A stretch of DNA of 34,223 nt. It comes from a virus. Each line of letters opens with the position of its first letter. Positions within the stretch are counted from its first letter, which is position 1. The DNA lies in the IMG/VR virus record IMGVR_UViG_3300030677_000014, positions 1 through 34,223 of that record; one strand, written 5' to 3'. The position numbers and the translations under genes are program-made. The notes under the pieces are model-generated. The model was not told the DNA's origin. It did no database searches and was given only the letters and a program-made list of their open reading frames with translations. Shown here piece after piece: positions 1 to 34,223 of this stretch.

Positions 1-1614
1 CAACGCTCGGCGGATGTTGTAAATCCCAACCGGGTCCTGGCCCGACAGCAGGGCTTTGGCGTCCGTGGCGGCCATCGGGGCCAGCACGATAGACGGCGGC
101 AGTTCCATCGCCTTGTAGAACAGGCCGGGGTGGCGCTTGAAGCTCCGCATCTTCGTGTTCTCAAGCTGGATCATGTTCAGCGCTTCGTGGCTCTCGACCC
201 TCCATTCACAGTCGGCGGCGGCTGGCAGGGCATTGGACCCCCGCACGCCGCGTTCGCTGTCTTTGCCGGAGTGGGCGATCAGCAGGACGCCGCTGTTCCA
301 TTGCCGCTTGAGGGCGCGGCCGAAGTCGATGAACTTCCTCACGTCTTCGGACTTGTTCTCGGTCTGCTCGCCGTGCATCGTGTAAGCGTAGGTGTCGATC
401 ACGATAAGGCCCGGCACGGGTCCCTGTTCCTTCATCGCCGCGCACCAGTCATCGATCTCGGCCTGAATGGCCATGTCCGGCCACTCCGTGGCGATGGTCA
501 TGTGGTCGGTCTGCTTCTGGTGAGCGTTCTCCCAAGCCTTCGTCCTGAAGTGGGCAAGGTCATCCTCGCCTTCCCCGGCGTAGTACAGAACCTCGTGGCC
601 TTGGGCCTGGAGATCGAGCGACCATTTCACGGCCACGTGGGTCTTGCCGACGTGCTGCGGCCCATAGAGGACTGAGATGGCTCGGGCCGGCAGGATGTCC
701 GGGATTAGGAAGCTGGGTGGAGGTAGTTCACGCAGTTCCTTGATGGTCCACCGCTTGAACCGCCGTACTTCGGGCTCCTGCTTCTCGGGCAACAGGTCCT
801 TGAACGTGTCAGTCGCCGAGATCGCTTCTTCCTCTGCATACGGCGTGTCATAGTCCTCCATGTGGAGGACAGTGCAGCGCTCGATCTCGTATTCTGGCAG
901 GGGGTCGGGCTGGAGCATGTTCCGCTCAAGCATGAGCGCCATTGCCGTCTCGGTGCTGAGGCCACAAGCCAGCAGCATACCCGCCTCGCTGGTCATGCTG
1001 GCGTTCCGAGACCCGAAGTCCCAATTCGGACGCTTGTCCAGCCACGCCTTGGCCCGTGCCAGATTGTGTGGCTTGTCGAGATCAACCCGAGCGCCGGTGT
1101 CTTCCCGGCTGCGGCGTGTACACATCTCGCTTATCCACGGTGGAAGGTCCGCGATGGGCGTGTCGTCGGCGACGTAGGCCACCCCGTTCACGACGGACGG
1201 AGGCACGCAGATGTAGCTGTCATCACCGCGCGTGTCGATCCCAGGCCCGAGCATGTTGCCGGCTGACGGAGGAAGATGGCCGCGATAGAGCCGGTGCCTG
1301 CCGCCGCGTGGGGTGGTATGAGTGCGGGTCGGGAGCGAGCCGTGTACACGCTCTAGCTCCTGGAAGTTCGCCTCGCCGTCGGGCGGGTCGGTGTCCACGA
1401 TCCCAATGCCAGCCGGCCCTGGATAGATTGCCACGTTGCGGTCTGGGTCTTGCGTCCACCATGCATCTATGGTAGCAATATCCGTGGTGGCGTCGAGAAA
1501 GCCTCGGCTACCCTTCAGGGGTTTCTTGGTTCCGGGAGTACACGGAAAGACCGGAAGCCCGCGTGCGGCCCAATCAAGAGCGGCCTGATGTAGCGGTGAT
1601 TTTTCTGTGGACAT
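1..1614 (-). CDS. Primase-polymerase fused to RecA/RepA-like helicase ATPase (3' end outside window)
   Basis: This reading frame stays open for 538 residues from an ATG at 1614 to the left edge, so the C-terminus is missing. Residues about 10-165 resemble the bifunctional primase/polymerase N-terminal domain: a DTD metal motif (74-76), PRGGRH (102-107) and GIDTRGDD followed by VPPS (125-140). Residues about 300-480 form a RepA/AAA_25-type ATPase with Walker A GPQHVGKT (318-325), Walker B LIVID (403-407) and RGVRGSNAL (455-463). Such fusions prime DNA synthesis and unwind the fork in phages and plasmids. The AAGGAGGA element just upstream supports the start. It is the only left-side gene on the minus strand and is divergent from the other replication genes. 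Two GTGTACAC palindromes lie inside it. Family assignment is by motif only, but the motifs are clear. Confidence 0.9.
   Translation of the reverse strand, partial: MSTEKSPLHQAALDWAARGLPVFPCTPGTKKPLKGSRGFLDATTDIATIDAWWTQDPDRNVAIYPGPAGIGIVDTDPPDGEANFQELERVHGSLPTRTHTTPRGGRHRLYRGHLPPSAGNMLGPGIDTRGDDSYICVPPSVVNGVAYVADDTPIADLPPWISEMCTRRSREDTGARVDLDKPHNLARAKAWLDKRPNWDFGSRNASMTSEAGMLLACGLSTETAMALMLERNMLQPDPLPEYEIERCTVLHMEDYDTPYAEEEAISATDTFKDLLPEKQEPEVRRFKRWTIKELRELPPPSFLIPDILPARAISVLYGPQHVGKTHVAVKWSLDLQAQGHEVLYYAGEGEDDLAHFRTKAWENAHQKQTDHMTIATEWPDMAIQAEIDDWCAAMKEQGPVPGLIVIDTYAYTMHGEQTENKSEDVRKFIDFGRALKRQWNSGVLLIAHSGKDSERGVRGSNALPAAADCEWRVESHEALNMIQLENTKMRSFKRHPGLFYKAMELPPSIVLAPMAATDAKALLSGQDPVGIYNIRRAL
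1116..1123. repeat. GTGTACAC palindrome, copy 1
   Basis: Inside the primase-helicase gene; flanks C and A; read as Cys-Thr on the minus strand. Confidence 0.9.
1342..1349. repeat. GTGTACAC palindrome, copy 2
   Basis: Inside the primase-helicase gene; full CGTGTACACG; read as Val-His on the minus strand. Confidence 0.9.
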
Positions 1615-1672
1615 GGGTCCTCCTTGGGCGTAGAGTGCGACCTGTAGACCCGTTTTGTCAAGAGGTTTTCCG
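1615..1672. promoter_or_regulatory. Divergent intergenic region, possible promoter
   Basis: Fifty-eight bases separate the divergent primase-helicase gene and the first plus-strand gene. On the minus strand a perfect TTGACA lies at complement(1656-1661), but no good -10 follows at 17 bases; ACTCTA at a 19-base spacing is the best alternative. The minus-strand ribosome-binding site AAGGAGGA lies at about 1619-1626 and the plus-strand AGAGG at 1661-1665. Position favours a control region, but the promoter itself is weakly supported. Confidence 0.35.
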
Positions 1673-1990
1673 ATGAGCCAGCAGTTGTTTACCCGGATCA
1701 AGCGTGCCGCGCCGGGAGCCGTGATCGTGTACACGCTTCCCGAGATGGCCCAGGCCCATCAGGCTTGGAGAACTGGGGAAGTGCTGCTATATCAGCGGGA
1801 GATCGGGTGGAACAGCAACGCCACCGCCCGCCGCTTCGAGCACTGCGCTCTGAAGCTGTCCCCACTCGCCGCCCGCTTCGTCGAGGCGGTATCAGCAGGA
1901 AAATTCGTCCATGCCAATGCACCCAAAGCTGCTCGCAGCCGCGTTCCTAAGGTGGCGTCGCGCCCGGTCGCTGGACAAGCCGGTCTTTGA
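1673..1990 (+). CDS. Unknown small basic protein, first gene of plus-strand block
   Basis: This gene encodes a 105-residue protein that I do not recognise. The ATG at 1673 is preferred over an upstream in-frame TTG at 1655 because AGAGG lies 7 bases before it. The central part is mixed alpha-type. The last 30 residues are Ala/Arg/Lys-rich and look like a disordered basic tail that could contact nucleic acid; that is inference only. The start of the gene contains a full CGTGTACACG palindrome at 1726-1735. As the first plus-strand gene after the divergent region it is probably early expressed, which is where phages often carry host-takeover or anti-defence proteins. Confidence 0.65.
   Translation: MSQQLFTRIKRAAPGAVIVYTLPEMAQAHQAWRTGEVLLYQREIGWNSNATARRFEHCALKLSPLAARFVEAVSAGKFVHANAPKAARSRVPKVASRPVAGQAGL
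1727..1734. repeat. GTGTACAC palindrome, copy 3
   Basis: Fifty-four bases after the start of the first plus-strand gene; full CGTGTACACG; read as Val-Tyr-Thr. Confidence 0.9.
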
Positions 1991-2168
1991 CCGTGGCCGG
2001 GAAGTCACGGCCCTCTTCTATGACCCCGACTTCAACGGGCTCGCGACCGGCATCCATCGCACAGAAAAGGATCGCCGCGTACCCCGGAACACTGTCACCG
2101 CAGTCATTTGTGGGGACCCTTCCCCCGAACGATCCGCTCTTGGGAGAGCCCATCATGACGACGAATAA
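1911..2168 (+). CDS. Unknown small protein overlapping both neighbours
   Basis: This is an 85-residue reading frame that overlaps the previous gene by 80 bases and the next by 14 bases, in other frames. No family is recognised. The stretch 1991-2090 has very GC-rich third codon positions in this frame, as true genes here do, and it would otherwise be an unexplained 165-base gap; these are the reasons for calling it. Start choice is uncertain: ATG at 1911 or 1917, with only a weak CAGGAAA upstream. The C-terminus ends in His/Asp/Glu-rich residues. It could be translated by coupling to the upstream gene. Confidence 0.5.
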   Translation: MPMHPKLLAAAFLRWRRARSLDKPVFDRGREVTALFYDPDFNGLATGIHRTEKDRRVPRNTVTAVICGDPSPERSALGRAHHDDE

Positions 2169-2415
2169 AGCTGTCCACCGTCTCCAAGAGGCGGTCAAGC
2201 GCTGCAACACGTCGCCCTTCTACATGCGGCTTGTGCTTCACGAGTTCGGGATCGCGGTGCGGGCGTCGTGTACACAGAATGGCGTCAACTTTGGCGATCA
2301 GTACGTCGTGTCCTGGGAAGACCTGGAGAACGCGAACGCCAACGTCCTGATCTATGCAATCGAGCGTGTCGAGAAGGACCTTGACGCCGTCATTCACCCG
2401 AAGGAGACCACCTGA
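2155..2415 (+). CDS. Unknown 86-residue protein
   Basis: This is a compact 86-residue acidic protein of unknown function with predicted helices at both ends and a central segment containing VSWEDLENA. The ATG at 2155 is chosen over the more distant upstream GTG/TTG options because GGGAGA lies 6 bases before it. It contains a GTGTACAC palindrome (2268-2275), read here as Cys-Thr. Its stop overlaps the next start in TGATG, so the two genes are probably translationally coupled. Its place in the early cluster suggests an accessory role, which is inference. Confidence 0.65.
   Translation: MTTNKAVHRLQEAVKRCNTSPFYMRLVLHEFGIAVRASCTQNGVNFGDQYVVSWEDLENANANVLIYAIERVEKDLDAVIHPKETT
2268..2275. repeat. 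GTGTACAC palindrome, copy 4
   Basis: Inside the 86-residue gene; flanks C and A; read as Cys-Thr. Confidence 0.9.
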
Positions 2416-5864: not shown

Positions 5865-7079
5865 ATGCCAACAGGACGTGTACACGCGCGGCCCGTCCAC
5901 TCTCCGCTGGGTGCAAGCTCGGCGGAGAGATGGATGAACTGCCCCGGCTCGACGCTGCTCCTGAACATACTGGAGCTTCCCGAGACCGACGAACCCGACT
6001 ACCGGGCTGAAGGCACGGCAGGGCACGAGGCCGCCGCCGTCTGCCTCAACGAGGTGCTGGACGCGTGGGAGGTCATGCACCGCACCTTCAGTGGCGTGGT
6101 CATCAACCAAGAACTCGCCGATGCGATCCAGGTCTATATCGACTACGTGCGGGGCCTGAACGCGGTTGAGTTCTGGGTCGAGTACAGCATCAGCGCACCT
6201 GTTCACGAAAAGTTCTATGGCACCCTAGATTTCGGCTGCGTCGTCCCTCGGGTCAGCCTGGAGCCGGGGGCTTGCCCGCCGCGCTTCAACACCAACGTGG
6301 TACGCGTGGTGGACCTGAAGATGGGAAAGGGGATCGTGGTCGAGGTCGCGGACAATCCACAGCTTAAGTATTACGCTGGCGGGCTGATCTCTCACCACCC
6401 CGAGTGGCTGGATGACATGCCGGTCATCCTGGCCATCTGTCAGCCCCGCGTGGACTGGCACCCTGACGGCGTGATCCGTGAATGGGAGACGACCGTCGGT
6501 GAAATTCGGGCGTGGCTGCATGACGAACTTGTACCGGCCATGCTACGCGCCGAGTACGATGACGAGCTTAACCCTGGCCCATGGTGCAGGTTCTGCCCGG
6601 CCAAGCTTATCTGTCCGATGCTCACGGGGCTGGCACGCGCCGCCGCCCTAGCGAACCCGAAAGAGGTTCCGCACCTGACAGACGAACGGCTGGCGAAGGA
6701 CTACCAGTACCGGGAAGCCATCAAGTTCTACCTCAAGGCCCAGGAAGACGAGACCCTCCGACGCGCGATGAAGGGGGCGACGTTGCCCGGCATCAAGCTG
6801 GTGACGAAGAAAGCCTTCCGCGTGTACACGCCTCAGGGGCAGAAGCTGGCCCCGGCCCTGTTCGGCGATGACGCCTATGAGGACCGGAAGCTGAAGTCTC
6901 CGCCCGAGTTGGAGAAGCTCGGCCCCGAGGCCAAGGACTTCGTCAAGGAGCACGCGTACAAACCTGACACGGGTCTCACGATTGCGCTTGACACGGACCC
7001 CCGCCAGTCTGTTAAGGTGTCTACAGCAACCGAGACCTTCGGTGCAGCCCTTTCAAAACTCCAAGGAACCAAGCAATGA
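5865..7079 (+). CDS. DUF2800 RecB/Cas4-like Fe-S nuclease
   Basis: This is a 404-residue PD-(D/E)XK nuclease of the DUF2800 family. Visible elements are EGTAGHE (49-55), GTLDFG with D122, VVDLKMGKG with the D150/K152 pair, and QLKYYAGG (166-173). Four cysteines (C26, C241, C244, C250) are spaced as in Cas4/AddB Fe-S clusters. Such enzymes trim DNA ends, probably feeding recombination or replication. It stands next to the DUF2815 ssDNA-binding gene and upstream of the polymerase, the usual phage arrangement. The ATG at 5865 lies four bases after the previous stop. Two CGTGTACACG palindromes fall within it, one at codons 5-7. Confidence 0.88.
   Translation: MPTGRVHARPVHSPLGASSAERWMNCPGSTLLLNILELPETDEPDYRAEGTAGHEAAAVCLNEVLDAWEVMHRTFSGVVINQELADAIQVYIDYVRGLNAVEFWVEYSISAPVHEKFYGTLDFGCVVPRVSLEPGACPPRFNTNVVRVVDLKMGKGIVVEVADNPQLKYYAGGLISHHPEWLDDMPVILAICQPRVDWHPDGVIREWETTVGEIRAWLHDELVPAMLRAEYDDELNPGPWCRFCPAKLICPMLTGLARAAALANPKEVPHLTDERLAKDYQYREAIKFYLKAQEDETLRRAMKGATLPGIKLVTKKAFRVYTPQGQKLAPALFGDDAYEDRKLKSPPELEKLGPEAKDFVKEHAYKPDTGLTIALDTDPRQSVKVSTATETFGAALSKLQGTKQ
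5878..5885. repeat. GTGTACAC palindrome, copy 5
   Basis: At codons 5-7 of the DUF2800 nuclease gene, close to its start; full CGTGTACACG; read as Val-His. Confidence 0.9.
6822..6829. repeat. GTGTACAC palindrome, copy 6
   Basis: Late in the DUF2800 nuclease gene; full CGTGTACACG; read as Val-Tyr-Thr. Confidence 0.9.
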
Positions 7080-10317: not shown

Positions 10318-10680
10318 GTGTTTGATAGAAAAGCTCATGACGACGAGTATCGTGCCCAAAATCAGGCTGCCTGTACGGCCCGTTCCAAAGCTTGGTATCA
10401 CGCCAATAAAGACCGGGTTCTCCATAAACGCTATGAGCGCGAGTATGGCTGCACTTGGGAGGACAAGGTAGACATGTTTGAGTGGCAAGGTGGTGAGTGC
10501 GCCATATGCCATGACGAATTAGGCTCGGTAGCGAAAGCTCACCTAGACCACAACCACACCACTGGCGAAATCCGTGCGCTACTCTGTCGCGGGTGCAATC
10601 ACCTTCTGAGCAATGCTAAGGAAAACAAGGCAATCCTTCAGTCGGCGATAGAATATCTGGAGAATTTCAATGCCCAATAG
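10318..10680 (+). CDS. Endonuclease VII-like HNH nuclease
   Basis: The product is 120 residues and typical of the recombination endonuclease VII family. It has a zinc knuckle C61/C64 with C90/C93 around a beta-beta-alpha metal motif LDHNHTTG (76-83) and N94. These enzymes cleave branched DNA such as Holliday junctions, clearing structures before packaging, or act as homing nucleases. It starts with GTG three bases after the polymerase stop. Base composition is visibly less GC-rich than the polymerase and it uses more A/T-ending codons, which suggests a later gain. The Lys/Arg/His-rich N-terminus probably binds DNA. Confidence 0.9.
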   Translation: MFDRKAHDDEYRAQNQAACTARSKAWYHANKDRVLHKRYEREYGCTWEDKVDMFEWQGGECAICHDELGSVAKAHLDHNHTTGEIRALLCRGCNHLLSNAKENKAILQSAIEYLENFNAQ

Positions 10681-11004: not shown

Positions 11005-12165
11005 ATGAACATCGATCCGAAACTCTACGATTACGCCACGCCGACCCAGAAAATCACACTCGATGCTCTGAAGGAGTGCGACAGCTTCAATGCTGCCGAC
11101 CGTAAGCTGGGCCGCGCTCACGATAAGAGCCGCGACAGCTTCCGCCGGCTGGAGCGACATGCCGCCAAGCTCGGCTACGCCCCCGGTAACTGGACGGGCG
11201 GCACGGCCCCCGGCTATCACCTGGGCAAGGTGACGGTCCACCGTGACGGCAAGGGCGAGGTCGTACAGACCTGGGAACGCCAGCACCCGGACGATGCGCG
11301 GCGAATGATGGAGCTAATCGCCGCAGCCCTTGCGGAGGATATTCCGCGCGCGTCTCCGCTGCCGACACCCGAGTTCACCAGCCGCAAGCTCCTGAACCTC
11401 TACACGCTGACCGACTGTCACGTCGGGATGCTGGCCTGGGGCAAGGAGAGCGGCGAGCCGTGGGACCTGAAGATCGCTGAGAAGACGATCTTCGGCTGCT
11501 TCGAGAAGATGATCGCCAGCGCCCCGCCGGCCCACTACTGCATCGTGAACCAGCTTGGTGACTTCCTGCACAGCGACAGCATGTTGCCGATGACGCCGAC
11601 CAGCCATAACATCCTGGACCAGGATGTGCGGTTTGCCAAGATGGTTCGCACCGCGATCACCCTGCTTCGCCGTGTGGTCGATCTGGCCCTGCAAAAGCAC
11701 AACGAGGTCATCGTGGTGATGGCCGAAGGCAACCACGACATGGCGTCATCGGTGTGGCTGCGCTTGATGTTCGAGGCGCTCTACGAGAACGAGCCACGTG
11801 TACACGTCATCGACAGCGAGCTTCCGTACTACGCCTATCAGCATGGCAAGACCATGCTGGCCTTCCACCACGGCCACCTGAAAAAGCCAGACGAGTTCCC
11901 CCTGGTCTTCGCCGCTCAGTACGGTGAGATGTGGGGCCAGACGACCAAGCGCTACGCCCACTCCGGCCACCAGCACCACCTGTACTCCAAGGAGCACGGC
12001 GGGATGATCGTGACGCAGCACCCCACCCTGGCCGCACGCGACGCCTACGCGGCCCGAGGCGGCTGGTTCGCCGAGAGGGCGGCCACCGCTATCACCTACC
12101 ATGAAGACTATGGTCAAGTCGCGAGTGTGACCATCGTCCCCGAAATGCTGGAGGACAGCGAATGA
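11005..12165 (+). CDS. Metallophosphoesterase with N-terminal helix-turn-helix region
   Basis: The product is 386 residues. Residues about 13-57 look like a helix-turn-helix or winged-helix region. The catalytic domain has the calcineurin-like set: DCH (137-139), GD at 185-186, GNHD (242-245), HHGH (288-291) and GHQH (321-324). The substrate cannot be told; related phage proteins are annotated only as phosphoesterases, and DNA-end or nucleotide processing are options. The HTH suggests DNA binding. It is coupled to the next gene by ATGA. A CGTGTACACG palindrome lies at 11797-11806. Confidence 0.85.
   Translation: MNIDPKLYDYATPTQKITLDALKECDSFNAADRKLGRAHDKSRDSFRRLERHAAKLGYAPGNWTGGTAPGYHLGKVTVHRDGKGEVVQTWERQHPDDARRMMELIAAALAEDIPRASPLPTPEFTSRKLLNLYTLTDCHVGMLAWGKESGEPWDLKIAEKTIFGCFEKMIASAPPAHYCIVNQLGDFLHSDSMLPMTPTSHNILDQDVRFAKMVRTAITLLRRVVDLALQKHNEVIVVMAEGNHDMASSVWLRLMFEALYENEPRVHVIDSELPYYAYQHGKTMLAFHHGHLKKPDEFPLVFAAQYGEMWGQTTKRYAHSGHQHHLYSKEHGGMIVTQHPTLAARDAYAARGGWFAERAATAITYHEDYGQVASVTIVPEMLEDSE
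11798..11805. repeat. GTGTACAC palindrome, copy 7
   Basis: In the metallophosphoesterase gene; full CGTGTACACG, extended to ACGTGTACACGT (12 bp); read as Val-His. Confidence 0.9.
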
Positions 12166-16856: not shown

Positions 16857-19800
16857 CTTGCGGCGGGTGCTTGGATTGGAAGTTGTCCATCATATGGGTA
16901 GCCGACCGCGACAGCATAACCATGTGGTTCCACACGCTCTCACTGTGCTGAAGCTTCTCGCTGTCTGACAGCTTTGTGTCGTCGTTGATCTTCTGCAATA
17001 TCTGCCGCTGGATCGCCAGCGTATGGGCCACTTGGTTCAGCAGCCCTTGCTGACGCGTGTACACGTACTCCTTCTGGGCGTAGGCGATGTCGCTGCGGTC
17101 GCCGATCTTGAGATCGCGCCGGGCCACGGCGAGGTCCGCCGTCGCGGCGTCGAAGGTCCGCTTCTCCTTGTAGAAGTCCTCGACAGACTGGGCGTCAGCC
17201 CTGGTCTGGGTCATGGCGATCACCCTAGCGAACGGGAGGTCACTGATCTGCCACGGGGCACCCTTGAACCCCTCGAATGGAGCGCCGAGCACCTTCATGA
17301 TCGTGGCCCCGAGCGTGCCAGTGTAGCCGCGTATCATGTGGTCGATGCCGATGGGCGACAGGAATTGCTTCGGCAGAATGTGGGTGGGCTCGATCAAGTT
17401 CGACAGCGCCTTGGCCTCGGGCGATGTGTTCTGCGTCACCTGATAGTGAGCACTGTCCGCTTGGAGCGACGATGGCACGATGGGGCGGCCAGTGCCAAGG
17501 GTCGTGTTCGTGTAGACTTCCAACCCTGGCTGAAGGATCGCTGGCAGTTGCAGCGGGAGTTGCTGCGTAATCATGCTGGCCCAATCGAACATGGGCTTCG
17601 GATTATGGGCCGCCATCGCGTCTAGAATGCGGGTCAGAGCGCCGCCGAAGACCGCGCCCGGACCTTCAGGGAAACGGAGGTGGAACCGCACACCAGCGAT
17701 CTCGGGCGTAATCATGGCGTAGTCCTTCTGCCAGCGCTCGATCTCGCTGTACTGCCGGTCAGGATGGTTCTTCAAGGTCGTCTGATCCTGGATGTAACTG
17801 GCCGCCCACATCAGCGCAGTCGGGATGCCGACGGTCATCGCCGTGTAGCGGGCCGTCTCCCACGGCCGGTCGTGCCACGCGTCCATGAAGTTCTTCATGT
17901 AGAGCAGCTTCGGGCGGAAGAACGGCGTCACCCCGGCGTACCAGTTGACGATGTTGGACGCGGCGCGCTCGGCGTAGTCTATGCCGGCGGTGCGCGCGCC
18001 GGATGCAGCCTTAGTGGGCGCGTAGCCCTTGGCCTTGTAGTGCTCATAGATGCCAGTACGGTTCGCCGCGTCCAGCCTTTCCTGGACCAGTTGGGCCAGT
18101 TGGAGAGGATGGGTGACGTGGTTCAGAAGCTTCGGCCCCAGCCCGGTCTGTTCCATCAGCTTGGGGAGGTCGGTCCATTGGTCGCGATCCATGTCTACCA
18201 GGGCCGCGCCAAGGCCGCCCTTGGCCTGCATGTCCTTGTAGATGTCGTCGTTCTTCAGCACGTGGGTCATGCCTTTGATAAGCGTGAGAAACGGCGGGGG
18301 ATGCGACTGGTCATTGATGAACTGGATCACTTGGTGGCTCATGGCCGAGCGGCCGGCGAAGTCCGGGGTGATCGTGATGCCCGCCCGGTTGAGCGCCGCG
18401 AAGGTCTGCATCGTCCGCGTGATGGCGTCGGCCGGCCCATTGGCCGCACCACCCCGCATCAATTGGGCCATGTCCGGGTCATTGATCTGCCAGACCTCCC
18501 GCTTGCCCTTGTTATAGTAGGCGAACTGTTTGCCCGTCAGGCCCGCGTCTTCGCGTTCGACGATGATGGCCTCGAAAGCTTTCTTCGCGTGATCCCAGGT
18601 GGCGACTTCGGCCGGGTCCAGCTTGCCAGTCAGCGGGTCTTTCTCAGGCTCCTTGAAGCCGTACCGCTTGAGTTCCGCCTCGACGATATCGTCATTCGGG
18701 TCCGTCTTGGAGATGACCTTGTGCAGCCCTTCGCGCACGGCCCACTCGGGGTTCCGTTGCGCCATCTCGACCATCTGCTTCCTGGCCCAATTGGCGTCGG
18801 CGCTCTTGATGACGGCGCGCAGATTGTCCTGGGTCGAGAGCAACGGGTCGGCGATCTGCCTGTCACTGCCTTCCATCCGCTTCAGCGGGGAGCCGATAGT
18901 GAACCCACCCTGGCTGTATGGCTTATCGAAAGCATCGTCATCGCCCATAAGCCGGCGCATCGACACATAGATAGTGTTCATGGCTTTCATCGAAGCGACT
19001 TGCTCGGCGCTATACCGGCCGGCCTTGACCGCATAGTCGAGTGCGCCGTTGTTCGTCTCGGTCCACATGCGCGCGGCTTCCTCATACTTCTCGCGCCAAC
19101 TGTCCCGTTGAACAATCTCATGCGAAGCGTGAGGATTGACCCCGGTGTCGATGCCAGGGTTCTCGCGCGCCTTCTCCAAGTCCCGTTCATTCTGGACGAT
19201 GACTTGGTCGAACTCGTGCTGGTGCTGCTTGATCTCCAGATCGCGCTTGTCCTTCGCCGCTTTCAGCGCCTTGCTGGCCTCTTTCTTGGCCTTGGCCAGC
19301 ACTGTCTTATCGCCCGTGTCACCGGCTTCCTTGAGCTTGGCATTGTAGCGGTCCTGCGCCTTTTGGAATGCGGCGTCGGTCTTCGCCACCTTGTCGGTCT
19401 GCCGGCCGCCGGCCGTAGCCTCTTTCACGCGTGCCTGGGCCTTGGCGATGCGGAGGTTCTGGGTCGCCTTCTCGTCTGTTCTCGCGGCCAGCAGGTACGC
19501 CTTGAAGTCGTTGACATTGCCACCCTTGGAGAGCATCAACTTCCCCGCGTCGAGCAGGCCGTGGGAGCCGGGGATGATGTCTTTCTTGTCGGGGCCGTCG
19601 ATGATCCCGTCACGCACGAATGTCGCGGCCCGACTGGCGGACCCGTAGACCTGACGGAACGCGTCCTCGTTGCCGAAGTCCTTCCGGTCGTAGAGGCCGG
19701 CTTGGACCATCCGGTCGTCGACCCGCTTGGCCGGGATCAGTTCGGAGAAGACCTCCGTGGCGAAGTGTGCCCAGGTGCGGGGGCCGGGGGGCTGCGCTTC

Positions 19801-22062
19801 GCCCAGGTTGCTGCGGATTTCCAGCGACAGGTCCGCATCAGTGGCCCGCTTCCACGTATTCGCCGCCGACAGATCGCCACCACCGCTCTCAGCGAGGGCT
19901 TCACGTTCCTTGGAGATGTCAGCGTCCAGGCTAACCGGGGTCGAGTTCGGATCGAAGGACGGCACAGCCTTGCCGTCGGGCCGACTGAGATCACCCTCGA
20001 CCGGGCCGACGACCTTATTGTTCCTCATGGTGGCAACTTCGCCCCTGGTCTTGGGTCCAAAGCCCACGTGGACGTGGTCGCCTTCCTCTAGGATTTGGTC
20101 GAACGGCAACCCACTGGCTCGCAGTTTGGCGACGACCTCTTGGTTCGTCATGCCCGCCACCTTCACGTCCCACGCGCCATAGCCGGCGCGGAAGTTCGCT
20201 TCACTGTGTTCAGTCGCGTTCGGGGCGGCGGTAGTCTTGCCTTCCCGCACGAGTTCCGCCTGTGACGCCGCCGAGCGTTCGGCCGACGTGATCGTGGTCC
20301 GCGCGCCGAAGATGCCGTCGAAGGTCCCTTGCGGATTGGCGCGTAGTGCAGTGAGCTTGGCCTTGCCGGCGGCGTCCATCTTGGCCGTGGGTGGGGCTTC
20401 CTCGGGGGCGTCGCCGCGCGCCTTCATCCGGCCGTTGGCAAGATACTTCTGGGTCTCGGCCGGCAGGAAGCTCTCGTCACGTGTGGCGGCCACATGATCG
20501 TATCTGATACCGCCCCGCACCGAAGGGTCCTGAGTGGCCTCCAGGCGCACCCCCGGCCCGCTGGCGAGGAACCTGTCAGCTTGCTTCGGACCAGCATTGT
20601 AGGCAATGGACATGGCGTCCATGTTGCCGTTGTATTTCCTGTAGAGGTCGCTCACGATAGTTCGTGCGACTTGGGTGCTATAGGCTCGGTCGGTTAGCTT
20701 GGCCGGGTCGAAGCCATAGGCCCGAGCCGTGGCGGGCATGATTTGAAAGCGGCCGACCGCCCCCATCGGGCTGATCGCCGTGTCCGGGTGCGGGAGGTTG
20801 CCGGTCTCCAGACGCTCGAATACGCCTAGAGCCTCATCGACATTCGCGACGTAGTGCGGCTGGGCCACGGGGTCGAACTTTCCGGGCTCGGGGATATTGC
20901 CGGCCGAGCGGATTACGCTGGTGGCGGGCTGCGTGTACACACCTTGAGCACCACCATTCATCAGGTTCCGCTTCGTAGGCGACGGGGCGGCCGGCGGCTG
21001 GGCCTGGGGCGCGTGCTCGACGGCGCTCGGGGCATTGTACTGGGAGAGAGCAGGGGCGACGCTGTCACCCTCCACGTCCTGAAGGAGAAGCTGTTGCTTG
21101 AACTCAGGGTGCGCCCTGGCCAAAGACAATTGCTCACCGGGCGTCATGCCGGTATGAACCCAGATGTCCTGCATGTTCTTCTGGACGTGAAGGCTTGCCT
21201 CAGGGTTCGACACAAGCTGGGCCGCCGCCGTCTGATAGTCCGCAACCTGCGGGAATTGCCCCTTGACCTGGGGCGAGACTGGACTGCGGGTCACGGCGTT
21301 CGGGTAGACGGATGGGTCGGGAATTTCCCCGGCGCGGAAAGCGGTCATGGCCCCGGCGCGCGCTGCCCTAGCCGCAGCGATGCCCGGCTTGCCCATGACG
21401 GCCAGCGAGGCTTCACCCGTGATGATGTTGCCCAGGATCGATCCGGCTTGCTCACCGTGAACGGTTTCAGCACTGAAGGCCCACTGCGTCGGGTCCAGGA
21501 TATTGGAGGTCGGCGACTTCAGGTCCACCGTGAGACGCGGAGCGGGCACGCCAAGGTCGCCCAGCTTCCGGCCAGCCGGCGCTCCGATGGTGTTGATCGC
21601 CCCGACCAAAGGCGAGAGGACCACATTGATACCATCCCACAACGTCTGCGCGTCGCGGACTGTGCTGCCGTTGACCATCATACCCGATGTCATTTGATCC
21701 ACCATCGTCGGGTTGAATGAGTGCTGCCAGTTGGACCGCTGCTGTTCTTCAAGGCCCTGCCATGCGCCCGTAACTGGGCCCATGAAGTCGCTGCCAGCGT
21801 GTTGCAGGATCGAGGTCGTCAGACCCGCATCAGCAGTTGGGGCCTGCCGGGGGGCCTGCGGCGCGGGCGAGTGAGCCCCGTCGCCCCAGTAGGCGTCGAT
21901 CTTGTCGCTGCTCCACTTCTGTTTCAGGAGCGCCTGCGTCGCTTGTTCCTTCGCAGCCTGGACTACGGCGGGAGCGATGCCGCTCTTGAGCATGTCCTGA
22001 AGCTTCTGCGCGCCCTCAGGGCCTTGCGGCTGGGCGACTTGACCCGGTACTGGATCGGCCAT
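16843..22062 (-). CDS. Large DNA-ejection (internal virion) protein with transglycosylase and M15 peptidase-like domains
   Basis: The product is 1739 residues. Residues about 405-500 form an SLT-type lytic transglycosylase: LETGN with probable catalytic Glu419, [22 protein letters not shown]. Residues about 585-670 look like a zinc M15-type peptidase: ITSAERS, TEHS (H619), AWDV (D632) and DHVHVGF (H663/H665). A charged coiled-coil region spans about 870-970. The C-terminal part (about 1250-1600) resembles large polyvalent-protein-associated domains and has a hydrophobic stretch near 1430. It probably crosses the envelope during DNA entry and opens the wall locally, like T7 gp16. The gene starts one base into the preceding stop (TAATG). 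Confidence 0.85.
17057..17064. repeat. GTGTACAC palindrome, copy 8
   Basis: Near the 3' end of the giant ejection protein gene; full CGTGTACACG; read as Val-Tyr-Thr on the minus strand. Confidence 0.9.
20933..20940. repeat. GTGTACAC palindrome, copy 9
   Basis: In the 5' part of the giant ejection protein gene; flanks C and A; read as Val-Tyr-Thr on the minus strand. Confidence 0.9.
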
Positions 22063-27100: not shown

Positions 27101-27965
27101 CTGTCAGATTGATGGTCCCGCTCAGGGCGGAAGGCGTAAGGAAGCTCCCGTCAGTCGGCGGGTCCAGATATGGACCATCCTGAAAGAGGCTGGCATTCGA
27201 GCCTTGGGGCGGTGGTGTCGTCGGCCACGCAGAGGCCCAGTCGAAGGTCTCGAAGCCAGCCGTCGCGTCAAGCCCGGTGTTCGTCAGGGCATAGGGTCGG
27301 ACAGATTGGTTCAAGACCAGGGCGACTGTCTCACTCTGGACTACGCGGATCGCATTATCGGCGATCATTGAGGCCGTGTACACGGTCGCAAAGTCAACAA
27401 TCCGCGCCACAGTGACCGTAGCCCCAGTGACGTTGATTAGGCTACCATCAATGGTGTCCCCCGTGATTGGGTCCGATAGGGTGAAGTCGTTGGCGTCAGT
27501 CACCGTGATCGCGAACTGGCGATTGTAGAGGTACGCCGCCCCACCCGGATTGAAACCGGGCAGGAACGTCACCACGAACTGAACTTGGTCGCCGGTGCTA
27601 TAGCCGTGGGCCACGGGCGTGTTCACGCTGGCCGGGTTGGCGCTGGAGATCGAGGCCACGGTGTGCTCGTTCTCAACCACAAGACTGGGTCCGGCGAACA
27701 GCCGCATGTGGTCGGGGGTGAACTCCAGATCGTAGGGAAGGGTCTGCGTGAAGTCGAACGCCTTCAGCACCGCCCGCACGCCGTTCCGCGTGGTGGCCGC
27801 GAACTGGCTTCCGCTGCGCCGGGTCCAAGCCCCCTCTTCCGTGGGAACTGCATTGAGGCAGACATTCATGGCCGTGCGGTAGGACTGTTCATCCGCGCGC
27901 CCTTGCGCGAATGGGGACCACTCACCGCCGGTGAAGTTCGACTGGAGGAAGGATGCGTCGGGCAT
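24186..27965 (-). CDS. Tail tubular protein B / nozzle-like
   Basis: The product is 1259 residues. The start FTGGEWSPFAQGRADEQSYRT (from residue 11) with NAVPTEEGAWTRRSGSQF matches the opening of podovirus tail nozzle/stabilisation proteins (T7 gp12-like). The rest is beta-rich with many aromatic/Gly turns, in line with a propeller-like nozzle. At 1259 residues it is much longer than T7 gp12 (about 800), so the additional part, probably the latter half, may be an inserted domain. Start and stop overlap its neighbours closely (TAATG at 27965). A CGTGTACACG palindrome lies at 27375-27384. Confidence 0.82.
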   Translation of the reverse strand: MPDASFLQSNFTGGEWSPFAQGRADEQSYRTAMNVCLNAVPTEEGAWTRRSGSQFAATTRNGVRAVLKAFDFTQTLPYDLEFTPDHMRLFAGPSLVVENEHTVASISSANPASVNTPVAHGYSTGDQVQFVVTFLPGFNPGGAAYLYNRQFAITVTDANDFTLSDPITGDTIDGSLINVTGATVTVARIVDFATVYTASMIADNAIRVVQSETVALVLNQSVRPYALTNTGLDATAGFETFDWASAWPTTPPPQGSNASLFQDGPYLDPPTDGSFLTPSALSGTINLTASSIASINNGTGFQSTDVARFIRLYSEPPTWSSSTTYSTGSRVKYNGGYYQATATSTNIEPDADPGTHWFISTTAAVYTWGIIQSVISTSEVSVTLAEADPNVLLAGGPLLYSLPILTWQLGVYSDTTGWPTGGTYHEGRFLLFGAIQNRIDASMSNQPFLFSPSMIDNTVADNNAIAAVLEATDVNTIYWAIAGSGGVVLGTLAGEWLLQASALGDPLTPTSIQAHRVTRYGDANVEPRQTGLSIVFVERYQRKVYEYLADSWSGKNIGTNIAIKAKHLTEAGLQEIVYQREPNPIIWGRDPNGQLVGCTYKRESPFSSQPASFMGWHRHALGSGRTITSIQEGPSPDGTTDSVSMVTLSADTGIYFVEFFAPFFDETGSLLTAQFVDTAVCPTAAYINGGDVIFYGLYYLAGETISVWLGGVDCGDYVVAANGSITMPLGAGGGVLTAGYLQSLTGGSYGNINLNIEVTPPGQGFSAPFGSLTDYTTSSSSPSSYPQIAQSVVFDWDAQVFYTMQGQQSGDPGTNSRSLFVFDIGTFAQLEGPLDPGVLGYSNSTCLGYDGHIYFCNGTSTQFNRFNTTTNTVDLTYFKSDIGTIGPPPVVIDLGGISYVWGISSNSGTGGGSSSQWWIVEMADVEQNEVTNGFFDEEFTSLSPSNAILCRGPEGSAFALCWDEAETTIGLYRAVVEGPLFAGVGRVGSVPVSELDASWSGAQPSCIVYDETDGNIVGLFVQSGGSQCVIAKVDAWTGAVLWSIPVNGGNDFHTARIRFGLLNYIGADTIYQIDTLAGTATSTSETVLGGQPFSTDDLYGQIVANINDIGTQSWASPGPAANSGPGTTTPALVYNAPALLGFTFTSQGQILRAIVPQEAGAANGPAMAKTRRTHQVGILMSLTLGISVGTTFDNLRAANLVSNGGDGTIPLTLQQLFSGIYWDTIDDTYSFNGMVCWQISRPYPASILSVNQFLHTQDR
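27376..27383. repeat. GTGTACAC palindrome, copy 10
   Basis: In the nozzle gene; full palindrome extended to CCGTGTACACGG (12 bp); read as Val-Tyr-Thr on the minus strand. Confidence 0.9.
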
Positions 27966-32027: not shown

Positions 32028-32918
32028 TTACTCCGATGCCAGAATTGCGTTGAGTTGGCCCATCTCCCGACCGGCGGCATTGTCGCCATTCAGGTAGCGT
32101 TCGACCCACGCGCTGTCGGACTTGAGTTCCGCGATCCGAGCCGCCGCGCCTTCGCGGGTCATAAGACCATTGGAACCCGAGCCAGTGAAATTCGAGACCA
32201 GCCGGTCCTCGCCAGTTCGCATCCCGATAGTGCGGAAGACTTCCATCAGCCCTTTGTAGCCGACTTGGTTCTCCAGGGCGGACATGGCGACGCCGAACTC
32301 TTCCGGCTTCATCCCACTTTCCTTCAGGACTGTCTCGAAGGCGGCTCTGGCGACGACCATGTTGGCTTCATAGCCTGGGCCCCAATTGTTCTTCAGAGCA
32401 TCTCGCTCAGCCTGGAGTTTGGCCGTCATATCCGTCTTTTCCACGGCCTCAGCGTCATCGCCCATCTTGACCAGGGCTTTGGCCAGTTCCGGGGCGCGAT
32501 CCTTCGAGAGGCCGAGACTGTGCGCGAGATTGCGAAGCTCGCCGGTAAGCGCCGGGTCCAGGTCAGAGCCGTCGGCGAACTTGATGCCGTCGAAGGTGTA
32601 GTCCTCGGGCTTAGCGGGGACATTCAGGAGTTCGCGGATTGGAGCCCAGTTGGCTTCGTCAGCGGCGTCCTTCGGCCGGCGGAGGATTTGGTCGGCGGGG
32701 ACGCCGATGTGGCGCTCGGCCTCGCGGTGCGCCTTGACGGCGGCGGCGAACGCCTCCGACGGCGGCTTATCAGCGAAGCCCCGGTTTTGAAGCCAGCCCG
32801 CCGTTTCGGCGTCGATATAGTTCGGTTGAGCCGCATCAGTGGCTTGATACCAGGACGCAGCCGCCGGAGGCGTCGCGCCCGTATCGCCGGGGGCGGCGGG
32901 GGTCGTTTGATCGGTCAC
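32028..32918 (-). CDS. Scaffold protein
   Basis: The product is 296 residues. It is acidic and helical, with an Ala/Pro-rich disordered N-terminus, a middle containing PAKPEDYTFDGIKFADGSDLD (typical of phage scaffolds), and a C-terminal helix region. It lies between portal/Bbp19-like genes and the capsid gene. It starts with GTG after AAGGAGATG, overlapping the stop of the previous gene (GTGA). It should direct procapsid assembly and leave the mature head. Confidence 0.82.
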   Translation of the reverse strand: MTDQTTPAAPGDTGATPPAAASWYQATDAAQPNYIDAETAGWLQNRGFADKPPSEAFAAAVKAHREAERHIGVPADQILRRPKDAADEANWAPIRELLNVPAKPEDYTFDGIKFADGSDLDPALTGELRNLAHSLGLSKDRAPELAKALVKMGDDAEAVEKTDMTAKLQAERDALKNNWGPGYEANMVVARAAFETVLKESGMKPEEFGVAMSALENQVGYKGLMEVFRTIGMRTGEDRLVSNFTGSGSNGLMTREGAAARIAELKSDSAWVERYLNGDNAAGREMGQLNAILASE

Positions 32919-33205
32919 TGGTCATCTCCTTGGATGGCAATGGAATTAGAGCCGTACAGGAACAGCAATTCTTCAGGGCTCATATGAAGGTGCTGGTTCA
33001 GGCGAAGAAAGACACTGCGTCTTCCCGCCAGATAGGCGGTTTTGTGGGGGTCAGCCGACATAGTGTCCTCGGTGGCCCGGCAGAATTTCGCCAAGTCTTC
33101 TAGGACTATGGCCTGGGCGGGACTGTGTACACGCGTTCCGAACGTCAGTTGGTACGCGTGCTTCCGGCGACGCAGGAAGTTGAGTGTTTTTTCGACTACG
33201 TTCAT
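32915..33205 (-). CDS. Bbp19-like phage protein
   Basis: The product is 96 residues. The pattern RRRKHAYQLTF, IVLEDLAKFCRA (33-44) and AGRRSVFLRL (60-69) matches the family named after Bordetella phage BPP-1 Bbp19, a small protein kept beside portal and scaffold genes. Its function is not established. The ATG overlaps the upstream stop (ATGA). It contains the only GTGTACAC copy that is not preceded by C. Confidence 0.75.
   Translation of the reverse strand: MNVVEKTLNFLRRRKHAYQLTFGTRVHSPAQAIVLEDLAKFCRATEDTMSADPHKTAYLAGRRSVFLRLNQHLHMSPEELLFLYGSNSIAIQGDDQ
33125..33132. repeat. GTGTACAC palindrome, copy 11
   Basis: In the Bbp19-like gene; flanks T and G; read as Val-His on the minus strand. Confidence 0.9.
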
Positions 33206-33366: not shown

Positions 33367-34223
33367 TGGCCGGGTCCTTGTGGCTGAGATTGGTCAGTCG
33401 GGGCTTGCTGGGGCGCGGGAGTGCCCGGTGGAGGTTGTTGCTGGCCCATGCCACCTGGAGCGCCCATTCCGCCCGGAGCCCCACCGCCCCCAGACTTCTG
33501 TTGGGCCGCCTGGGCCTTCATCAATGCGGCCTGGGCCGGGGCGGCCTGGATTTGCTCCTGTCGTTGCTGGGCTTGGGCGCGACCTTGGCGCTTTTGCTGC
33601 ACTTCCTTGTCGGTGGCCATCCAGGTAATCGGGACAGACTGGACATCGACCGCGATCTCAGGGATCGCTCGGTCGAACGCAAACAGATCGAGCGGCGACG
33701 GGTCTTGCGTGACCTGGACGACTTCCTGGACAACACTCAGGGTACGCATGAAGCCGGCAGCTTCCTGCGCGCGCATCGCCTTACTCAGAGGGCTGGTGTA
33801 ATATACCTCATACGCGCCCAGAGCTTTGCGTAGCTGAGGGGGCATGGGGGGTAGCAGCCCCATGCGAGAAGCCAGATCAATCTCTCGCTCAATGAGAGGA
33901 CCCAGATACTCGGATTGCTGGCGACCAACCGTTGGAGCCAGGAGTATGCCTTTTTCATTGGTCCTCTCGATCACTTCAGTCGCCGTCATCTGCGGCGTCT
34001 CTTCCAAAATCTGAAACAGGCTAACGAGGAACGCATCACCGATCAGCGACCGTTCTTCATCCATCATCTCCTTGGAAACCTGGATTTGGCCGGTGGGGAG
34101 GATTGTGACCAGGGGTTTACCATCTGACGTGACGCCGCCCTTGTTGAGGGCCCCTGGTCGCAGCGAGACACCGTCAATGAGGCCATCATCAGCAGTGAGC
34201 AGAACAGGGTCTGCGGCGCGGCC
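33363..34223 (-). CDS. Portal (head-to-tail connector) protein, C-terminal part
   Basis: The frame is open to the right edge, giving the last 286 residues of a podovirus-type head-to-tail connecting protein. Key matches are ALNKGGVTSDGKPL, the METxQ-like ETPQMTATEVIERTNEKGILLAP and VGRQQSEYLGPLIEREIDLA. The protein ends in a ~70-residue low-complexity tail of Gln/Ala, then APGGMG twice and Pro/Gln, likely disordered inside the head. The N-terminus lies outside the window. It is followed by coupled small head genes, as in related phages. Confidence 0.9.
   Translation of the reverse strand, partial: GRAADPVLLTADDGLIDGVSLRPGALNKGGVTSDGKPLVTILPTGQIQVSKEMMDEERSLIGDAFLVSLFQILEETPQMTATEVIERTNEKGILLAPTVGRQQSEYLGPLIEREIDLASRMGLLPPMPPQLRKALGAYEVYYTSPLSKAMRAQEAAGFMRTLSVVQEVVQVTQDPSPLDLFAFDRAIPEIAVDVQSVPITWMATDKEVQQKRQGRAQAQQRQEQIQAAPAQAALMKAQAAQQKSGGGGAPGGMGAPGGMGQQQPPPGTPAPQQAPTDQSQPQGPGQ

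Follow-up and report, generated by a model that had tools for sequence, protein, structure and literature searches.

Among phages, the closest described parallel is that of the L5-type stoperators, many copies of a single binding word scattered across a genome, whose specificity diverges between relatives; according to the passages of PMC9283540 that concern them, each is an asymmetric 13-bp site oriented with transcription, they occupy promoters and short intergenic spaces, and a repressor with a helix-turn-helix and a Stoperator domain recognizes them. On plasmid R388, a mobile element, the anti-restriction protein ArdC combines DNA binding with a Spartan-like metalloprotease domain; the relevant parts of PMC7213743 describe for it non-specific binding of single-stranded DNA through the N-terminal domain and a protease activity that is dispensable for anti-restriction. 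We analyzed 34,223 nucleotides of viral DNA (IMG/VR record IMGVR_UViG_3300030677_000014, positions 1 to 34,223; hereafter, the window) in which the 8-bp palindrome GTGTACAC is repeated. Most likely, this word serves as the DNA address of an SprT-like metalloprotease that the phage itself encodes a short way beyond the window, because such palindromes and the protease gene co-occur across phages and the letters of the site change with two neighboring residues of the protein.

The window contains exactly 11 copies of GTGTACAC, the number given in an earlier note made from the sequence, compared to 0.29 expected and a maximum of 2 over 100 shuffles, and this word is its top over-represented 8-mer by Markov score. 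Every TGTACA (11 of 11) lies inside GTGTACAC, the preceding base is C in 10 of the 11 copies and the following base is G in 8, and 7 copies extend to CGTGTACACG. Copies with one mismatch are no more frequent than by chance (8.23 matches expected and 19 observed, a number that counts the 11 exact copies). All 11 copies are located in coding sequence and all codon phases are used (5, 4, and 2 copies), which indicates conservation of a DNA word and not of a peptide. The sites resemble L5 stoperators as dispersed copies of one word with diverging specificity, but they differ in being 8-bp perfect palindromes instead of asymmetric 13-bp sites, in being tied to a metalloprotease, and in being mostly genic (11 of 11 coding here, with modest noncoding enrichment at other loci) instead of promoter-associated or intergenic.

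The right end of the window (34222..34223) continues in the near-identical contigs L096 and L118 with portal, terL, and terS genes, a noncoding gap, and a divergently oriented SprT-like gene, the remainder of which is on another contig. Over 13,500 compared bases, an overlapping contig of the same phage differed at 3 positions, of which two were at the extreme end. The window and overlapping contigs together (∼41 kb) contain 17 distinct GTGTACAC sites, of which three lie in the noncoding gap upstream of the SprT-like gene. The relative L097, with a capsid protein 82% identical, possesses three GTTTAAAC sites in the same gap between SprT and terS; this relative has 11 GTTTAAAC in 22.6 kb and one GTGTACAC in the 20.5 kb examined. 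For the late sites, no alignment of the window with L097 spanned the orthologous positions. No SprT-like gene was found in any of 17 other relatives, retrieved by other genes, whose records were searched whole, and GTGTACAC was present 0-1 times in six SprT-less relatives counted whole. The SprT/terS gap also contains direct repeats of ∼40-55 bp (about 830-1010 in L096 and 2755-2860 in L097), recognized by reading the sequences, that are mutually dissimilar in sequence; they are a possible origin or regulatory region. A DoxX-like membrane protein gene is found downstream of the SprT-like gene at 5288-5719 of L118 (by eye) and at 834-1283 of L097 (Pfam DoxX).

Enrichment for GTTTAAAC, CTTTAAAG, ATTTAAAT, or GTGTACAC, for which the common form of the SprT-linked dispersed palindromes is NTNTANAN, was observed in 47 of 73 SprT lineages, from phages retrieved by their SprT-like gene, versus 1 of 105 control loci. 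A lineage comprises SprT proteins joined at 80% identity, with the best-scoring member standing for the whole; when half of the members or the longest locus decided instead, 46 or 48 lineages were enriched. By locus, the count was 129 of 178, a set in which several contigs are present twice. The controls were loci L005-L117 minus eight loci of this phage and L097, counted without dereplication, and one tblastn query gave no SprT match in the DNA examined for them. The sole enriched control was L094, where GTTTAAAC occurs three times in 12 kb; its 21-kb record contains no SprT. SprT was the only family found within 6 kb in all 80 loci compared, and the next family was found in 26 of 80 when putative reverse-strand shadows of SprT were set aside (blastp, E 1e-4). 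The two 80-locus sets of the analysis were the best 80 of 134 and the best 80 of 378. The density of three of the words was 0.9-1.1 per kb at ≤500 bp from the start of the SprT match, compared to 0.14-0.19 per kb at 5-10 kb upstream and 0.44-0.51 per kb at 5-10 kb downstream, while three reversed control words remained at ≤0.08 per kb throughout. A 10-bp palindrome, TACGCGCGTA, was separately enriched in L081, L094, and L077 (6, 4, and 4 copies), which are relatives by the product of gene 11005-12165 and have no SprT-like match in the DNA examined; it is possibly another dispersed-site system.

The SprT-like protein is composed of an HExxH metalloprotease domain and a C-terminal zinc ribbon. 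The HExxH motif is present in 177 of 178 loci, and H92, E93, H96, and H105 are invariant in the structure alignment of 60 sequences. Two of the proteins scored 21.7 and 20.3 bits with Pfam PF10263 (E 2e-4 and 5e-4; the first protein is cut at 165 aa), below the curated cut-off of 25.6. The structure was predicted with high confidence (predicted local distance difference test [pLDDT] score of 94), and its fold at residues 11-125 gave SPRTN as the best VIA-align match (6mdw, Z 8.6 over 99 residues; 6mdx, 8.3), in a tie with the small protease selecase (4qhf, 8.3); Wss1 (5xbn) gave Z 7.5. Foldseek alone returned no match to the predicted structure at E < 0.001, and a PDB sequence search with the protein yielded nothing at E up to 1. 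The protein has in common with SPRTN/Spartan and Wss1, the DNA-protein crosslink proteases, the HExxH motif and a zinc-binding part that follows the protease part; it differs from them in the apparent recognition of a specific palindrome in double-stranded DNA by its zinc ribbon. That a mobile element can carry a metalloprotease that binds DNA has a precedent in ArdC; unlike ArdC with its N-terminal domain for single-stranded DNA, the phage protein has a protease match that starts at residue 11 and an extra part that is C-terminal. All eight proteins tested matched phrog_6361, which is listed as of unknown function and includes the "SprT-like protease" of Arthrobacter and Microbacterium phages. 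Of eight actinophages tested, 6 have no GTTTAAAC, and every one except Marky (7 of 8) lacks the first Cys pair of the zinc ribbon.

We examined the covariation of protein residues with site letters, the strongest line of evidence, by scanning 189 protein columns in 49 lineages that have a word. For this set, scores had been rounded to one decimal, which assigned a word to 133 of 178 loci and to 49 of 73 lineages, compared to 129 and 47 unrounded. A single column separates the GTGTACAC lineages without overlap, with Y, H, and H in the three GTGTACAC lineages versus M in 24, L in 19, N in 2, and Q in 1 of the others. The adjacent column is the sole one that separates CTTTAAAG, with S, A, Y, and G in four lineages versus R in 45. 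Both columns sit in a loop, K-K-Q-x-T-R-X, ahead of the zinc ribbon, which points to the C-terminal zinc ribbon as the likely reader, and the 40 GTTTAAAC lineages have Met, Leu, Asn, or Gln directly after the Arg. Some other columns, too, scored above every one of 400 shuffles, chiefly because of the ATTTAAAT clade; ATTTAAAT accompanies the loop K-K-Q-P-T-R-L in this one clade only, so shared ancestry may account for this pairing. On a tree of 72 of the 73 lineages (the omitted one lacks HExxH), three changes are needed for each of GTGTACAC and CTTTAAAG. Supported sister pairs differ in their words, with L118 (GTGTACAC) beside L121 and L177 (GTGTACAC) beside L199, both sisters having GTTTAAAC, and the independent pairs on supported branches agree in 3 of 3 and 2 of 2 cases. 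Whole contigs bear out the other two GTGTACAC lineages, with 7 copies in L137 (37.9 kb) and 11 in L177 (25.6 kb), and the L177 sister L199 has 0 (39.0 kb).

Among 16 named phage isolates with an SprT-like gene, GTTTAAAC is most frequent in Dinoroseobacter phage R5C (17 copies), Pseudanabaena phage Pan1 (16), and Enterobacter phage Arya (7), followed by Persinger (4), Soondubu (3), Marky (2), F_TK1718 (2), and 4A (1). In Arya, Persinger, and F_TK1718, sites begin 18-28 bp ahead of the SprT gene. In these isolates, GTTTAAAC is found in 7 of 7 with the first Cys-x2-Cys and in 1 of 9 lacking it (P 0.0014, with related phages among them). Loss of the Cys pair as the cause of missing sites, a candidate that fits the 16 isolates, failed over the 72 lineages. 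Other words are enriched in the Microbacterium phages Armstrong (L241-L242) and Celaena (L243-L245), which contain 15 and 13 copies of GCGATCGC and have an unusual SprT-like loop, KSRSG in place of KKQxTR; Zeta1847 has 6 copies of ACACGCGTGT.

Several observations count against the assignment of the palindromes to the SprT-like protein. At the cut-off used, 26 of the 73 SprT lineages have none of the four words (23 have nothing and 3 have another palindrome), many of the word-less lineages (e.g., L138 and L346) keep an intact loop and Cys pair, and 8 of the 16 isolates have no GTTTAAAC. Words occur in 39 of 56 lineages with the Cys pair and in 10 of 16 without it. Individual lineages depart from the expected pairing: L201 has a ATTTAAAT-type loop, yet no ATTTAAAT in 11.6 kb; the Arg-less L139 lacks CTTTAAAG in 11 kb; the Trp-bearing L140 has 2 GTGTACAC in 43 kb; and the CTTTAAAG lineage L209 is poorly aligned in the loop. 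The residue grouping was noticed before the 189-column scan tested it, and with only 3 + 3 (about six independent) switches a tree-based sign test cannot reach 0.05. Both 80-locus sets, like the capped lists from which they were drawn, were centered on two SprT proteins.

We considered whether the sites might instead be operators or stoperators, with a DNA-binding repressor (possibly the SprT-like protein) halting transcription both at early promoters and at numerous places along the genome, as mycobacteriophage repressors use dispersed sites according to the pertinent portions of PMC9283540. In its favor, 19 of 69 loci have a site, with near-copies counted, no more than 200 bp ahead of the SprT gene, and 53 sites touch noncoding sequence versus 18.4 expected (summed over 18 loci or pieces with rough open reading frame calls). 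It is nevertheless unlikely on balance, because the sites are mostly coding, because the palindromes have no orientation, in contrast to the asymmetric and oriented stoperators described in that source, and because no repressor or integrase family was identified among 20 window proteins scanned, the window being part of a genome. A function as replication, partition, or packaging sites (parS-like sites or origin repeats) is favored by the grouping of sites near terS and SprT in this phage and L097, along with direct repeats in the gap, and by a spacing more even than expected by chance in R5C (P 0.03), Pan1 (P 0.003), and L309 (0 of 20,000 simulations); against this, the sites of L132 and L097 are clustered, those of other loci are unremarkable in spacing, and sites are also scattered through late genes. 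General family scans detected no ParB family among the window proteins, and we judge this function to be distinctly improbable. Operators of the GntR/HutC type are GTNTANAC-like; GntR-type operators were considered and not preferred, and no GntR family was found among the window proteins in the general scans.

Co-occurrence alone cannot separate partners, so another phage protein could read the sites and merely travel with the SprT-like gene. Most loci are fragments, and a fast-evolving or distant partner would escape the blastp search, limited as it was to 6 kb and E 1e-4. That no other family exceeded 26 of 80 loci (putative reverse-strand SprT shadows aside), and that the covariation of residues with letters is located in SprT itself, make such a reader improbable. 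Two of the four words are 8-bp restriction sites (PmeI cuts GTTTAAAC and SwaI ATTTAAAT), which would suit a restriction-modification relic, the words being targets of host or phage enzymes; depletion of targets would be expected instead of the enrichment observed, and the words track SprT residues, so we give this origin very little credence. Chance or codon usage might draw on the weak P value of the four-site cluster near the divergent gene starts, but it is practically negligible in view of 11 copies versus 0.29 expected and the occupancy of three codon phases.

The SprT-like protein is probably the reader of the palindromes, as judged from sequence comparisons. Direct binding by this protein is suggested, and the palindromic nature of the site suggests a dimer. 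The loop K-K-Q-x-T-R-X would read the 8-bp palindrome N1-T-N3-T / A-N-A-N, presumably as a dimer. At position 1, G (or A) accompanies Arg162 (L118 numbering), whereas C accompanies loss of this Arg. The residue after Arg162 would set position 3, where Met, Leu, Asn, or Gln goes with T and Tyr or His with G, which would yield GTGTACAC in this phage. The sites just upstream of the SprT gene suggest self-regulation, to which we assign an even chance. The dispersed, mostly genic sites, which are even in some phages and clustered in others, suggest placement of the protease along the phage genome, a function that we propose only tentatively. In such a scheme, the nearby sites would allow the protein to control its own gene and the dispersed sites would retain it along the phage genome, where, speculatively, the protease may cleave proteins that attack phage DNA or are bound to it. 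The listings of a full-text literature search gave no report of these sites or of a sequence-specific SprT protease, and the passages retrieved by term searches of the R5C genome paper (PMC5454422) and the Arthrobacter AZ paper (PMC8758107) contained no account of the sites.

Within the window, four sites flank a 58-bp divergent gap (1615..1672) between the gene starts at 1614 (leftward) and 1673 (+). The left flank is a Prim-Pol/AAA primase gene (1..1614, − strand), truncated at the left window end, that contains site 1 (1116..1123, codon phase 2) and site 2 (1342..1349, as CGTGTACACG, phase 1). The right flank is the first gene of the + early operon (1673..1990, + strand), for which no Pfam family was found; site 3 (1727..1734, as CGTGTACACG) is 55 bp into this gene, and site 4 (2268..2275) is inside a small gene at 2155-2415. 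The earlier note had placed these four copies correctly, all within 1116-2275, and had taken their density to suggest DNA looping or repression of both early operons. The sites do lie on both flanks, but the gap itself is site-free, the nearest sites lying 55 bp inside the + gene and, within the − gene, 266 bp from the gap. In simulations, 4 of 11 random sites fell inside 1152 bp in 3.8% of cases (P 0.038, with the cluster chosen post hoc), and the variation in spacing across the whole window was unremarkable (P 0.26), so the cluster is real and statistically weak. A weak sigma-70-like match overlaps the gap (1608-1636, + strand; 1 found versus 0.3 expected by shuffling). A protein-binding explanation was the right kind of answer, and the evidence favors an SprT-like protein as the reader, with likely self-regulation and sites along the genome; repression survives for the SprT gene itself, with its three noncoding sites in the second divergent gap beyond the window, whereas looping and the early operons gained no direct support. 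The comparison with relatives that the note had advised gave a mixed result: the L097 sites do crowd a divergent gap, that of SprT and terS, but with the letters of GTTTAAAC, and the six sister records without an SprT-like gene contain GTGTACAC 0-1 times.

The remaining sites are distributed over the window, a tailed-phage fragment in which Prim-Pol, helicase, exonuclease, and DNA polymerase genes occupy one side and genes for the major capsid protein and the tail occupy the opposite one. Site 5 (5878..5885) is near the start of, and site 6 (6822..6829) is inside, an exonuclease gene (5865-7079); site 7 (11798..11805) is inside a DNA repair exonuclease gene (11005-12165); sites 8 (17057..17064) and 9 (20933..20940) are inside a gene of 1739 aa; site 10 (27376..27383) is inside a gene of 1259 aa; and site 11 (33125..33132) is inside the gene at 32915-33205. 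A related capsid protein is encoded in 36 phage records, 22 of them from Pelagibacter phages. Rfam (gathering threshold) and tRNA scans of the window gave no match, nor did a near-identity search of phage records with its first 25 kb or a Prim-Pol scan of viral contigs, and a TerL scan identified 8 loci, half of which are this phage. Positions 10318-10680, in the early operon, resemble an HNH/recombination-endonuclease gene when judged by reading the sequence only.

For phrog_6361, the assignment would supply a likely property, sequence-specific DNA recognition, and a repeated word that had no explanation would become part of a protein-DNA code that can be read and that makes predictions for two residues. 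It is conceivable, though we consider it somewhat less than an even prospect, that many phages carry a site-addressed SprT-like protease whose proteolysis is confined to phage DNA, where it would clear host silencers, defense proteins, or roadblocks, and whose two-residue code has changed together with the whole address set several times in evolution. If true, this would point to a way of restricting a protease to viral DNA.

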